A stretch of 36,028 bases of DNA from Ramlibacter sp. (lineage in GTDB: Bacteria; Pseudomonadota; Gammaproteobacteria; Burkholderiales; Burkholderiaceae_C), in assembly GCA_022844525.1 (NCBI GenBank), contig JALHLO010000007.1, forward strand, positions 1 through 36,028, given 5' to 3'. The notes below the pieces were generated by a model, which was not told where the DNA came from, ran no database searches, and saw only the letters and a program-made list of their open reading frames with translations. The position numbers were made by a program, and so were the translations under genes. Below, in pieces: positions 26,708 through 31,883 of the stretch; positions within the stretch are counted from its first letter, which is position 1; every line of letters starts with the position of its first letter.

Positions 26708-29700
26708 TCAGTGGAAATCGCGGGAGCCGCCCAGGCCTCCGAGCCGTCCCAGCAGCGGCGTCAGGTCCTCCAGCGTCTCCGCGACCAGGTGGCGCACCTG
26801 GCCACCGCTGTCCGTGTCCCTTTGCCAGACCCCGCGCACCGCCAGCAGCCTGGACTGCAGCAAGGCATCGCGCTGCTGCTCGCGCACGTGCTTCCATACG
26901 ATCACGTTCACCGGGCCGGTCTCGTCCTCGATGGTGACGAAGATCGTGCCCTTGGCCGTCTGCGGCTGCTGGCGCACGGTGACGATGCCGCAGGCGCCCA
27001 CGCGGCGGTTGTTCGGCAGGTCGTGCAGTTCCTGCGCGCTCGACAGCTTCATGCGCGCGAGCCGGGGGCGCAGCAAGGCCACCGGATGCCGGCGCAGGGT
27101 GAGCCCCATGGAGGCGTAGTCGAAGAAGATCTCCTCGCCTTCCCGGGCGGCCGGCAAGGCGAGCGGCAGTTCGTCGATCGGCGCGTCGCGCAGCATGCCG
27201 GGCGCCTTCTGCTGCCCGGAGGCTTCCCACACCTGCTGGCGGCGGTGGCCGGCGAGGGACCGCAGGGCGTCGGCGGCGGCGAGCGCGTTGAGGTCCTTCA
27301 GTTCCAGTTGCGCGCGCAAGGCCAGGTCCTCGACGTTGGCGAACGGCCGTTGCGCGCGAGCGGATTCGATGCGGCGCCCGCCCGCTTCGCTGAGGGAGCC
27401 GACCAGGCGCAGGCCGAGGCGGACTTCCGGCCGCAAACTGGGGCGCAAATTGGGGTCAGATTCCAATTTCGTTCCGAAATTGGAATCTGACCCCAATTTG
27501 CTGTCCCAGTCGGAGAAGCAAACGTCCGGCGGCAGCACCTGCACGCCATGGCGCTGCGCGTCCTGGATCAGCTGCGAAGGCGCATAGAAGCCCATGGGCT
27601 GCGAGTTGAGCATCGCGGCCAGGAAGCATTCGGGCTCGTGGCATTTGAGCCAGCTCGAGTCGTACGCGAGCAGCGCGAAGCTGTAGGCGTGGCTTTCCGG
27701 GAAGCCGTATTCGCCGAAGCCCAGGATCTGCTGGAAGATGCTCTCGGCGAACTCCTTGCGGTAGCCGTTGGCGATCATTCCGTCGATCAGGCGGTCCTGG
27801 AACTTGTGCACGCCGCCGCTGCGCTTCCACGCTGCCATGGAGCGGCGCAGCTGGTCGGCCTCGTCCGGGGAGAAGCCGGCGGCGATCATCGAGATCTGCA
27901 TCACCTGCTCCTGGAAGATCGGGATGCCCAGCGTGCGCTCCAGCGCGGGCCGCAGGGCCTCGCTTTCATAGCGCACCTCCTGCCCCGCGCGCACCCGCTC
28001 GCGCGCCTTCAGGTAGGGATGGATCATCCCGCCCTGGATGGGCCCGGGCCGCACGATCGCCACTTCGATCACCAGGTCGTAGAACACCCGCGGCTTCAGC
28101 CGCGGCAGCATCGACATCTGCGCGCGGCTCTCGATCTGGAACACGCCCACGGTGTCGGCGCGGCAGATCATGTCGAAGGTCGCCGGGTCCTTGTCGGGAA
28201 TGTCCGTGAGCGTAAAAGGCACACCGCGCCGCTGGCTCACGAAGTCCAGGCAGCGCCGGATCGCGGTCAGCATGCCCAGCGCCAGCACGTCCACCTTGAG
28301 CAGCCCCATCTCGTCGAGGTCGTCCTTGTCCCACTGGATCACGGAGCGGTCCTTCATCGCCGCGTTCTCCACCGGCACCAGGCGCGTGAGCTTGCCCTGC
28401 GTCAGCACGAAGCCGCCCACGTGCTGGCTCAGGTGCCGGGGGAATCCCATCAGCTCCTCCGACAGTTCCATCCAGAGCGCGAGCGACTTGTCCGGCACTT
28501 GCAGCTGCAGCGAAGCCGCGAGCTCCCCGAGCTTCTGCACGCGCAAGCCGCGTTCGTCGAACCAGAAGTGGTCCTTGGCGAAGGCGTCCACCAGCGGATC
28601 GGGAATCCCCAGCGCCTTGCCGGAGTCGCGGATCGCGCTGCGCGCACGGTAGGTCGCCACCACCGCCGCGATGGCGGAGCGGTCGCGTCCGTACTTGCCG
28701 TAGATGTACTGGATCACCTCCTCGCGCCGCTCGTGCTCGAAGTCGACGTCGATGTCGGGCGGCTCCTTGCGCTCGCGGCTGATGAAGCGCTCGAACAGCA
28801 GGTCCGACCGCGCCGGGTCCACGGCGGTGATGCCCAGGCAATAGCAGACCGCGGAATTGGCCGCGGAGCCGCGTCCCTGGCACAGGATCTTCTGCGAGCG
28901 CGCGAAGCGCACGATGTCGTGCACCGTCAGGAAGTACATCTCGTAGGCGCACTCGGAGATCAGGTCCAGCTCGCGCACGAGCTGCTTGCGCACCCTCCAC
29001 GGCACGCCCTGCGGATAGCGGTCGCGCGCGCCTTCGATGGTGAAGCGGCGCAGCGCCTGGCGCGGCGTCAGCCCCGCCGGCACGGTTTCCAGCGGGTACT
29101 GGTAGCGGATCTCCTCCAGGCTGAAGCTGCAGCGGTCGGAGACTTCCAGCGTGCGCTCCAGCAGCTCCGCGGGATAGAGCGACGCAAGCCGCATGCGGTG
29201 GCGCAGGTGGCGTTCGGCATTGGGCTGCAGCGCGAACCCGCATTCGGATACGGGCTTGCCCAGGCGCACCGCCGTCATCACGTCCTGCATCGGCTTGCGC
29301 GAGCGCGCATGCATGTGCACGTCGCCGGCGGCCACCAGCGGCACGCCGGAGAGCTCGCCCGCATCCTGCAGCTTCTTCAGCCACAGGTCGTCGTCGCCCT
29401 CCAGCAGCAGCTCGGCGGCCAGCCACAGGTGCCGGCCGAAGCGCGCCTGCGCCCAATCCAGGCGATCGCAAATTTCCTCCACCGAGAGCTCGTGCTGCGG
29501 CGCCAGCAGGACCTCGCATTCCCGCAGCAGCGTGAAATCGCTTCCTTCGCGATCGCACGCGTACTCGCCCTTCTCCGCCTGCCGGCGCGCCAGCGTGATG
29601 AACTCGCACAGGTTGCCCCAGCCCGTCACGTTGCGCGCCAGTACCACCAGGCGGAAGCCGTCGAGCGCGAACTCCGCGCCCAGCAGCAGCTTCAGCCCGA

Positions 29701-29881
29701 GCTTCTTCGCCTCCGCGTGCGCGCGGACCACCCCCGCGACCGAGCATTCGTCGGTGATCGCCAGCGCCGTGTAACCCAGTTCGTGGGCGCGCTGCACCAG
29801 TTCCTGCGGGTGCGAGGCACCGCGCTGGAAACTGAAGTTGGACAGGCAGTGCAGCTCCGCGTAATCGGGCAACCAGGACAT
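26708..29881 (-). CDS. dnaE2: Error-prone DNA polymerase DnaE2 (ImuC)
   Basis: This 1057-residue family C polymerase acts with ImuA and ImuB in SOS mutagenesis past damaged DNA. An N-terminal PHP domain (HCLSNFSFQRGASHP, ALAITDECSVAGV) is followed by the polymerase core. The core has GRGSAANSAVCYCLGI, the catalytic aspartates in PPDIDVDFEHERREE (D376, D378, D380), HVGGFVLTQG and the finger region GFSPDEADQLRRSM. An HhH-type segment and a C-terminal OB fold (GIVTVRQQPQTAKGTIFVTIEDE) complete it. Residues about 794-813 are encoded by a perfect palindrome not expected in the family; the frame stays open through it. The start is nine bases after the imuB stop. Length is close to the family norm of about 1040. 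Confidence 0.95.
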   Translation of the reverse strand: MSWLPDYAELHCLSNFSFQRGASHPQELVQRAHELGYTALAITDECSVAGVVRAHAEAKKLGLKLLLGAEFALDGFRLVVLARNVTGWGNLCEFITLARRQAEKGEYACDREGSDFTLLRECEVLLAPQHELSVEEICDRLDWAQARFGRHLWLAAELLLEGDDDLWLKKLQDAGELSGVPLVAAGDVHMHARSRKPMQDVMTAVRLGKPVSECGFALQPNAERHLRHRMRLASLYPAELLERTLEVSDRCSFSLEEIRYQYPLETVPAGLTPRQALRRFTIEGARDRYPQGVPWRVRKQLVRELDLISECAYEMYFLTVHDIVRFARSQKILCQGRGSAANSAVCYCLGITAVDPARSDLLFERFISRERKEPPDIDVDFEHERREEVIQYIYGKYGRDRSAIAAVVATYRARSAIRDSGKALGIPDPLVDAFAKDHFWFDERGLRVQKLGELAASLQLQVPDKSLALWMELSEELMGFPRHLSQHVGGFVLTQGKLTRLVPVENAAMKDRSVIQWDKDDLDEMGLLKVDVLALGMLTAIRRCLDFVSQRRGVPFTLTDIPDKDPATFDMICRADTVGVFQIESRAQMSMLPRLKPRVFYDLVIEVAIVRPGPIQGGMIHPYLKARERVRAGQEVRYESEALRPALERTLGIPIFQEQVMQISMIAAGFSPDEADQLRRSMAAWKRSGGVHKFQDRLIDGMIANGYRKEFAESIFQQILGFGEYGFPESHAYSFALLAYDSSWLKCHEPECFLAAMLNSQPMGFYAPSQLIQDAQRHGVQVLPPDVCFSDWDSKLGSDSNFGTKLESDPNLRPSLRPEVRLGLRLVGSLSEAGGRRIESARAQRPFANVEDLALRAQLELKDLNALAAADALRSLAGHRRQQVWEASGQQKAPGMLRDAPIDELPLALPAAREGEEIFFDYASMGLTLRRHPVALLRPRLARMKLSSAQELHDLPNNRRVGACGIVTVRQQPQTAKGTIFVTIEDETGPVNVIVWKHVREQQRDALLQSRLLAVRGVWQRDTDSGGQVRHLVAETLEDLTPLLGRLGGLGGSRDFH
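27445..27501. repeat. Perfect 57-bp palindrome inserted in frame in dnaE2
   Basis: The arms are 27 bases each (27445-27471 and 27475-27501) with a 3-base centre (27472-27474), and every position pairs. The core GGGGTCAGATTCCAATTT resembles REP-type palindromes associated with single-strand (Y1/RAYT) transposases. The total of 57 bases equals 19 codons, so dnaE2 stays in frame. The adjacent 27432-27443 (CGCAAACTGGGG) is a one-mismatch copy of 27444-27455 (CGCAAATTGGGG), a possible short duplication at the border. Confidence 0.88.
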
Positions 29882-29890
29882 GGCGGACCT

Positions 29891-31174
29891 TCAGGCGTAG
29901 AGGCCGTGCAGGAACCACAGGGCCTGGTCCTGCCCCGCGGCGAGGCGTTCCCGGTAGATCCACAGCAGCCCGGCCGATGCGCTGCGGGCGATGAAGTAAT
30001 CGCGCAGGGCGGGCTCCCTGGCCTGCGTGTCCCACCAGGCCGCTTCCACCCGGCGCGCGCGCGTGAGCAGCTGCAGCGGCCCCTGGTAGGACGGCTTGTC
30101 GCCCTGCACCTGCAGGCGCAGCGGTTGGCGCAGCAGCCAGGGCGGGAACAGCGCGTCGCCACCGGCCTGCTGGATCGCGGCGGCGGCCCCGGCGGTGCGC
30201 GCGGGCACCCAGCGTTGCATGCATTCGGGCCGGTGGTCCTGCAGTTGCCGCGGCACCGTCACGTTCGATTCCCCGAGCCGCACGCTCAGGCGCTCCACCA
30301 GCTGGTGCAGCTTCTCGCCCGGCCTGTTGTCCTCCGGCAGCAGGCTGGTGGTCGCGCCGCCCCAGGGCACCGTCTCCAGCGTGCGCAGGCGCAGCTGGTT
30401 GGCGGGCGCGGAGAGCGCGCTGAGGGCCAGCTGCTCGGAAGCCAGGCGCCGCAGGTGCTTCATGTCCTGCGTGGGTTGCGCGGTGCGCAGCTCGATCTTC
30501 TCCGTGGGCGGCAAGGGCTTGCCATCGAGCTTGCGCAGGTCGAGCGTCCATTCCAGTTCCAGCGCGAGCGCGCCGAGGTTGCGCGCCTGCAGCCACATCT
30601 GCAGCCGCGTCAGCAGGTGCTGCCCGGTGAAGAGCAGGTCGGTCGCGGTGGTCGCCAGCGACTGCAGTTCCAGCTTCTCGTCGAACGCGGACGGCAGCAC
30701 GACCCACTCGTAGCGTTCCGGCCGCTGGCCGAGCGCGGCGTCGAGCGCCTGCAGCAAGCCGGCACCGAAGCGGCGGCCCAGGCCCGCGCGCGGCAGGCCG
30801 CGCAGCTGCCCCAGGGTCGTGCAGCCGATGCGCTCCAGCGTCGCCAGGTGCGCGCGCGCGGCGGTGAAGAGGTCCAGCGGCAACCCGTCCGGCAGGCCCT
30901 GCGGAATCGCTTCGCCGCGCCGCTTCAGCCGCAGCAGCGCCAGCGCCAGCAGGGACGTGGGGGCGCTCGCCCAGGCATCGCAGGCCAGCGCCTCCTCGCC
31001 CTTGAGCAGCGCGCGCAAGAGGTTCCGGCGCCCGCCGAACAGGCGTTCCGAGGCGCCCGCCTCCAGCAGGATCGCCTCCTCGACGAAGGCCACCCGGGGC
31101 GTGAACTGCAAGGCCCGCCATGCCCAGGCGGTCGCGTCCTCATTGCGCGAGGGATGCAGTGCGATCCAGTACAT
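29891..31174 (-). CDS. imuB: ImuB, inactive Y-family polymerase-like mutasome protein
   Basis: ImuB is a Y-family polymerase relative without catalytic carboxylates that links DnaE2 to the beta clamp. This 427-residue version begins with MYWIALHPSRN, has the palm-like RALQFTPRVAFVEEAILLEAGASERLFGG, the HhH-like LGQLRGLPRAGLGRRFG, and the little-finger region with KLHQLVERLSVRLGESNV. A QxxLF-type clamp motif is not obvious; the place where one is expected reads TTSLLPED. The start at 31174 lies inside the 3' end of imuA (35-base overlap), consistent with coupled translation. It is slightly shorter than many relatives. Confidence 0.9.
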   Translation of the reverse strand: MYWIALHPSRNEDATAWAWRALQFTPRVAFVEEAILLEAGASERLFGGRRNLLRALLKGEEALACDAWASAPTSLLALALLRLKRRGEAIPQGLPDGLPLDLFTAARAHLATLERIGCTTLGQLRGLPRAGLGRRFGAGLLQALDAALGQRPERYEWVVLPSAFDEKLELQSLATTATDLLFTGQHLLTRLQMWLQARNLGALALELEWTLDLRKLDGKPLPPTEKIELRTAQPTQDMKHLRRLASEQLALSALSAPANQLRLRTLETVPWGGATTSLLPEDNRPGEKLHQLVERLSVRLGESNVTVPRQLQDHRPECMQRWVPARTAGAAAAIQQAGGDALFPPWLLRQPLRLQVQGDKPSYQGPLQLLTRARRVEAAWWDTQAREPALRDYFIARSASAGLLWIYRERLAAGQDQALWFLHGLYA

Positions 31175-31883
31175 GCGTCGCGTCGGTCGGCAAGGTGGCG
31201 GGAAGGACGATGCCGCCGCGGCGCGTCTTGCGCGCGGCCAGCAGGGCGGACAACTTCTGCGGATGCGAGCGCAACTGCAAGGGCTGCAGCAGCGGCGGCC
31301 CCCTGCGCTTGAGGATCAGCACCTCCAGCTGCTCGGTGCCCTGCAGCAGCAGCCGCAGCCTGGCGGGCGAGGACTGCGCAGCGGCCTCGACGCCGCGGAA
31401 GACGAACAGCAGCTTTTCGCCCGCCTGCGCGCACAGGTGCAGCCGCCGCAGGTCCTCCGAGCGGGCGCGCGGCAGCCAGGCCAGCACCGCGCCCACGTCC
31501 GCGCAACGCAGCGCCTGTTCCGCCGCCCACAGGCGGGCGGCCGGCTGCTCCGCCTGCACGCACAACAGGTGCTCGGGGTGGATGCCCTGCTCGCGCAGCG
31601 ACGGCCCGAAAGGCTGGTAAGGTGGATGCACCAGCACCGCGGGGTGCTGCGTGCGTCGCATGGCTTCCCCCACGGCCGGCCCGGCGAGCTGCCACACATG
31701 CTGCTGCGCTTGCCGCTGCAGCACCTCGACGAGGTTGCCCAGCGGCCAGCCCCCTCCCGGAAGCTGCGCGTCCAGGGCCGCATGGCCGGTGGAAAGCGTC
31801 GTTTCCTGCGCCCGCGCGAGCTCGCTGCCGAGCCAGACCTGGGGCGGCAAAGTGAGTTCTCGGGTGGGCGATGGGGCGGTCAT
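31140..31883 (-). CDS. imuA: ImuA, translesion synthesis-associated RecA-like protein
   Basis: The 247-residue protein is the first gene of the SOS cassette. ImuA proteins have a RecA-like fold and interact with ImuB and RecA. Typical features are TLSTGHAALDAQLPGGGWPLGNLVEVL (cf. the RecA/SulA-like start), AVLVHPPYQPFGPSL, HLLCVQAEQPAARLWAAEQALRC, VLAWLPRA and a basic C-terminal part with RGPPLLQPLQLRSHPQ. Arg/Lys-rich end KTRRGGIVLP precedes the overlap with imuB. A perfect LexA box lies 15 bases before its ATG (31883). The frame is intact. Confidence 0.9.
   Translation of the reverse strand: MTAPSPTRELTLPPQVWLGSELARAQETTLSTGHAALDAQLPGGGWPLGNLVEVLQRQAQQHVWQLAGPAVGEAMRRTQHPAVLVHPPYQPFGPSLREQGIHPEHLLCVQAEQPAARLWAAEQALRCADVGAVLAWLPRARSEDLRRLHLCAQAGEKLLFVFRGVEAAAQSSPARLRLLLQGTEQLEVLILKRRGPPLLQPLQLRSHPQKLSALLAARKTRRGGIVLPATLPTDATHVLDRTASLAQ

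Follow-up and report, generated by a model that had tools for sequence, protein, structure and literature searches.

How does a perfect palindrome come to be read as codons of an error-prone DNA polymerase, and what has kept it there? The question is raised by the dnaE2 gene in a 36,028-nt stretch of a Ramlibacter sp. draft genome (contig JALHLO010000007.1; the window, that is, the whole stretch of DNA that was analysed). One gene here unites coding palindromes, a resident tyrosine transposase flanked by terminal inverted repeats (TIRs) and an error-prone polymerase.

The palindrome inside dnaE2

The dnaE2 gene (26708..29881, minus strand) encodes an error-prone DNA polymerase of 1057 aa, without an internal stop, that scores 1442 bits against the corresponding NCBIfam model (cut-off 939). 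On the same strand lie an ORF at 29891..31174, which has no Pfam and no NCBIfam match up to E = 1, and imuA at 31140..31883 (NCBIfam ImuA_translesion, 202.7 bits, cut-off 150). From its position and the usual gene order, we take the ORF to be the probable imuB of an imuA-imuB-dnaE2 cassette.

A preliminary description of the window, made from its letters, had reported 27-base perfect arms around a 3-base centre, with a length that is an in-frame multiple of three, and this holds exactly: the arms at 27445-27471 and 27475-27501 are 27 nt each, 100% complementary and spaced by 3 nt, and the 57 nt amount to 19 codons in frame with dnaE2. Read on the minus strand, this REPIN-like palindrome (27445..27501) occupies DnaE2 codons 794-813, two of them partial, with the peptide SKLGSDSNFGTKLESDPNLR. 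Within the perfect arms it consists of two inverted copies of a 21-base repeat, AATTGGGGTCAGATTCCAATT. The first unit in the reading direction of dnaE2 (27480..27496, minus strand; TTGGGGTCAGATTCCAA) encodes LGSDSN, and the second, inverted unit (27450..27466, plus strand) encodes LESDPN. The dnaE2 frame can run through the insert because five of the six frames of the 21-base unit are open; dnaE2 uses the two hydrophilic ones among them.

The region has a predicted RNA fold of -59.6 kcal/mol, compared with -23.6 +/- 3.6 in 200 shuffles (z -10). Could such a structure be a product of chance or of assembly? The draft bin that contains the window has 384 contigs and an estimated contamination of 5.41%, which leaves some room for an artefact, but about 2e-9 inverted repeats of this quality are expected in the window (given its composition and loops of 0-20 nt), and the structure recurs in two named isolates (L087, L088), so this reading is refuted. 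The runner-up among the perfect inverted repeats of the window has 11-nt arms.

Two further points of the preliminary description have to be revised. It had placed the insert in a loop between the polymerase core and the HhH/OB region; the loop instead falls in the N-terminal part of the Pfam HHH_6 match (779-882) and is thus not cleanly interdomain. It had also read the near-duplicate 12-mer at the left edge as a hint of insertion. This tandem near-duplication (27433..27456, plus strand; 27433-27444, GCAAACTGGGGC, against 27445-27456, GCAAATTGGGGT) repeats the outer end of the arm itself, so that a target-site duplication is not evident, and no clean empty site in a close relative was found among the loops of 48 loci. 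In the nearest empty and filled pair (G003 and G036), replacement as well as insertion separates the two. Tandem copies similar to the 12-mer flank the palindrome also in genomes G023 and G026.

A repeat shared with the ends of a resident transposase

The exact 17-base core of the unit occurs five times in the genome: twice in dnaE2, twice bracketing a Y1_Tnp gene and once directly past the stop codon of another gene; a search of the genome allowing up to three mismatches returned no further copies. The genome search for the arm and for a Y1 transposase that the preliminary description had proposed thus yields three further exact unit copies, two of which bracket the sole Y1 (REP-type) transposase gene found. 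The 21-base repeat matches at 21/21 positions on both sides of this gene, 11 bases ahead of the start and 26 bases past the stop, and the palindrome shares with these ends both the repeat and its inverted order. The transposase matches Pfam Y1_Tnp with 43.8 bits (cut-off 23) and passes NCBIfam REP_Tyr_transpos narrowly, with 80.6 bits (cut-off 80); it is 235 aa long and its Y1_Tnp match ends at residue 111, leaving a C-terminal extension, and no Pfam helix-turn-helix match was found up to E = 1.

To which kind of element does the repeat belong? The GGGGWSAS motif known from TIRYT elements is matched by GGGGTCAG within the unit. The tetranucleotide GTAG that marks classical GTAG REPs is absent from the palindrome and the unit, and is found a few bases outside the unit in only 2 of 30 transposase loci (G002, G005). 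The dnaE2 copy has the structure of a REPIN or MITE, with two inverted terminal units and no transposase gene between them. What survives of the designation as a REP-like palindrome is therefore that a dispersed, transposase-linked palindromic family has been turned into dnaE2 codons; the element itself is of the TIR/TIRYT kind and not a classical GTAG REP.

The association of repeat and transposase extends through the genus. The transposase is present in 36 of 37 same-genus genomes, the exception being G019, which is 75% complete, and it is single-copy in each apart from two copies in G032; those of G001 and G025 carry an internal stop. Among 30 loci inspected in a subset of the genomes, 28 have an inverted near-copy of the repeat (at least 18/21) on either side of the transposase; G012 has no downstream near-copy and the flanks of G018 are more diverged. 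In G030, both transposase ends read AGAACCC, and all 13 matches, the ends included, have that variant; in G001 and G022, the two transposase ends differ in variant. A match was found in 36 of 41 genomes, with 1-24 near-copies per genome, and a good part of the exact copies lie inside genes. In a family-wide sample, the exact 17-mer occurs in 49 of 299 genomes and 32 of 141 genera. The repeat also touches the ends of genes: beside the transposase at L003 and L007 lies a methyltransferase whose C-terminus, LGSDSNL, is read from the transposase inverted repeat, and at G030:C12:483194-483214 (L034) a unit overlaps the dnaE2 stop codon TAA.

The repeat has entered other proteins as well. The exact 17-mer forms 92 clusters in the set that we classified; one of them is in dnaE2, and ten more dnaE2 clusters were known separately. 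Of the 92, 19 were flagged as lying within a coding frame; setting aside L059 (a 30-residue frame), L003 (C-terminal read-through) and L046 (dnaE2) and adding L056 by hand left 17 coding clusters outside dnaE2, which fall in UvrA (8), carboxyl transferase (4), Rieske oxygenase (2), OCD-family reductase (2) and AtuA (1), as assigned by domain searches with one or two representatives each and by reading for the remainder. The LGSDSN/LESDPN reading is used by the dnaE2 copies and by 16 of the 17 other internal coding insertions. Units in UvrA sit at different sites at L192, L061 and L212, some of them in another frame (NWGQIPI). Together, dnaE2 and uvrA make up 19 of 28 internal coding clusters (11 dnaE2, by position, and 8 uvrA), though owing to shared ancestry they represent far fewer than 19 events.

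One DnaE2 loop across species

DnaE2 loci covering the loop were available for 36 of the 37 same-genus genomes (G019 left out), those of G003, G006, G022 and G029 being partial. The repeat, intact or decayed, is present in the loop of 19 of these 36 genes, which rules out a private recent insertion, and its motif is missing from the other 17. The carriers comprise five head-to-head pairs, two pairs in reversed order (G007, G016), eight single units and four decayed copies. Six DnaE2 of a separate clade containing Rhodoferax also have the repeat in this loop, as two pairs and four decayed copies, the latter resting on short similarity. In total, 25 of 126 DnaE2 rows carry it, the others being negative by the same peptide-plus-DNA pattern. 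The repeat is absent from distant DnaE2, and within the genus it is not confined to this genome. Lineages between Ramlibacter and the Rhodoferax-containing clade are also without the repeat.

On a tree built without the loop, at least 10 state changes are needed overall and 6 in the 30-row Ramlibacter clade alone, counts that do not separate gain from loss. Species of both Ramlibacter subclades have the same left junction. The window's own genome (G000), R. cellulosilyticus (G011), G023 and R. alkalitolerans (G026) have common spacers and flanking tandem copies, which points to one inherited insertion there, so that independent insertions may be few. Partial losses are seen as well, for example in G014 and G017.

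What makes this site receptive? No other stretch of DnaE2 varies as much in length as the loop, which has 6-79 residues in 125 rows, and residues 800-815 form the longest segment under pLDDT 50 in the structure model of the protein, so that the loop is probably disordered. Insertions would survive here because the loop is permissive. Other palindromes are found in it, too: the loop of G003 holds a different one, ATGCCGGACTCGATCCGGCAT, whose family has 137 matches (up to three mismatches) in that genome, and G036 has a truncated copy of the same type adjoining the unit. In a second dnaE2 of the window's own bin (G000:C365:2631-2680, L082), this loop is occupied by a perfect 21-base palindrome of unrelated sequence, with exact copies on contigs C180 (two) and C225; C365 may be a contaminant. 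The loops of G002 and L114 look similar when judged by eye. In the DnaE2 loop of L108, both arms deviate from the consensus at the same one base, as arm-to-arm correction would give.

Codon by codon, the repeat is far better conserved than the remainder of dnaE2. Among the 15 Ramlibacter rows in which GSDSN is still encoded, TTG, GGG, TCA, GAT, TCC and AAT are nearly invariant, and several of these codons are rare. TCA is used in 14 of these 15 rows, compared with 4 of 94 comparisons elsewhere in the same genes; a choice of rows by peptide could favour young copies, which is covered by the count over all 19 motif rows, four decayed ones included, where TCA is found in 18. TCT is used in 7/7 LESDP rows as opposed to 0/48 elsewhere, and TTG and GGG are shared elsewhere in the same genes in 396/2050 and 352/1429 comparisons. 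When identical rare codons are scored in four species picked for their intact pair (G022, with a decayed pair, was left out), the two arms reach 15.0 and 14.2 and the next best run of the gene 5.5. With conservation of this kind, the repeat is no private recent insertion, and it is probably not a fossil left to drift freely.

Are the copies instead renewed within each genome? For eight non-consensus dnaE2 copies, deviations recur in the own genome at a frequency of 0.171 against 0.062 in random genomes (p ~0.001, 24 genomes), in a test that ignores relatedness and in which three of the eight copies (G012, G022, G035) have no excess; with G000, G007, G009 and G018 added, the values are 0.171 and 0.069 (p 0.028, 28 genomes). 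These figures weakly support the idea that copies elsewhere in the genome renew those in dnaE2. If an inherited copy were renewed, through gene conversion or re-insertion, the codon, own-genome and shared-spacer data would all be accounted for.

Competing readings and known systems

Our best explanation, to which we give a probability of about six in ten, is that a non-autonomous doublet of a TIRYT/RAYT transposase terminal repeat was placed in a permissive loop, where it has been tolerated and renewed. The palindrome would be a REPIN- or MITE-like doublet of the TIR that flanks the only TIRYT/RAYT-class HUH tyrosine transposase found in the genome. The transposase would have placed units in the DnaE2 loop, probably in more than one event over both clades, and the DnaE2 protein would tolerate them, the insert being most likely near-neutral for it. 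The copies would not drift freely: re-insertion or gene conversion, with the transposase ends and sister copies as sources, would renew them.

Three other readings deserve to be set against this one. A single old insertion per clade, or a common one predating the two, could have been inherited under neutral decay, leaving a pattern made mostly by loss. The left junction common to both Ramlibacter subclades, the spacers and tandem copies shared in the window's subclade, the partial losses and tree changes compatible with either gain or loss all agree with it, but rare-codon conservation far above that of the rest of the gene, the existence of both unit orders and the presence of the repeat in a separate clade, across intervening lineages that lack it, speak against it; we regard it as unlikely. 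The hairpin might instead be kept by selection since it tunes dnaE2, as an mRNA hairpin, as a brake on transcription or translation, or as a DNA cruciform or single-stranded DNA site. Its very strong predicted fold, arms that still pair perfectly in four species and the matching one-base deviation in both arms of L108 would suit such a role. However, the eight single-unit Ramlibacter genes can form no long hairpin, nearly half of the same-genus genes (17/36) do without the motif, and uvrA and metabolic genes hold the same repeat, which makes selection for the hairpin unlikely too.

Selection could also act on the encoded peptide, for example as a flexible polar loop contacting a partner. The bias to the hydrophilic reading and the low model confidence of the loop are in line with this idea, but selection on the protein leaves the conservation of synonymous codons unexplained and the loop ranges from 6 to 79 residues in length, so that we hold it to be highly improbable. 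A further reading, which we consider decidedly doubtful, is that palindromes borne by a transposase settle preferentially in DnaE2 and UvrA genes, with the family renewing its copy in an error-prone polymerase gene and thereby tying a mobile repeat to mutagenesis. Such a preference could arise because transcription of these repair genes coincides with DNA damage, when the single-stranded DNA on which HUH transposases act is exposed; this link to damage is an idea and not a result.

REPs inside DnaE2, UvrA and other genes were described by Di Nocera et al. in 2013, who doubted a fortuitous origin, and the parts of that work consulted here also introduce the class of TIRYT transposases and their TIR repeats, many of which, though not all, contain GGGGWSAS (PMC3733652). 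The system described here resembles these TIRYT/TIRtron elements in its RAYT-like Y1 transposase with flanking inverted repeats that carry the motif, and in TIR copies that are moderately abundant and partly dimeric (PMC3733652). TIRYT elements probably correspond to subclass 2.1 of PMC6006769, whose members have a C-terminal helix-turn-helix extension according to the portion of that source used. In contrast to our TIR-type units, the intragenic elements named in the consulted parts of PMC3733652 are GTAG and CGTC REPs and none is of the TIR type; there, recB is hit at about the same site in two Xanthomonas while the other genes differ, whereas here one DnaE2 loop recurs. The 15-base core had no match in the literature searched, and literature searches with little subscription content and without bioRxiv returned no description of one DnaE2 loop repeatedly occupied by TIRYT-type repeats. 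In the literature examined, partly in excerpts, we met no experiment demonstrating TIRYT transposition.

REPINs are mainly extragenic and present in high copy number, compared with 1-24 near-copies per genome and a good part of the exact copies in genes here. Those of Pseudomonas RAYTs are, like the palindrome in dnaE2, inverted doublets of a transposase-linked REP, as far as the consulted part of PMC3116915 describes them. Rickettsia palindromic elements (RPEs), the classic example of palindromes in coding sequence, offer a parallel of another kind, since they are palindromic repeats lying in frame in unrelated proteins (PMC2229807, PMC10969869, both used in part), just as the present repeat is inserted in frame in dnaE2, UvrA, carboxyl transferase, Rieske oxygenase, OCD-family reductase and AtuA. 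RPEs measure about 105-150 bp and no dedicated transposase is named for them in those parts of the two sources (PMC2229807, PMC10969869), while here 21-bp units match the ends of a resident transposase.

Against this background, the recurrent loop provides a defined site at which insertion, renewal and loss of a repeat can be counted across species, and codon data provide a way to tell drifting fossils from copies kept at the DNA level. The locus also offers a testable case for the view, put forward in 2013 in the part of PMC3733652 consulted, that the presence of REPs in repair genes is no accident. Intragenic REPs and TIRYT elements were both known already; what is new here is the combination of TIRYT-type units, one recurrent DnaE2 loop and conservation at the level of codons.
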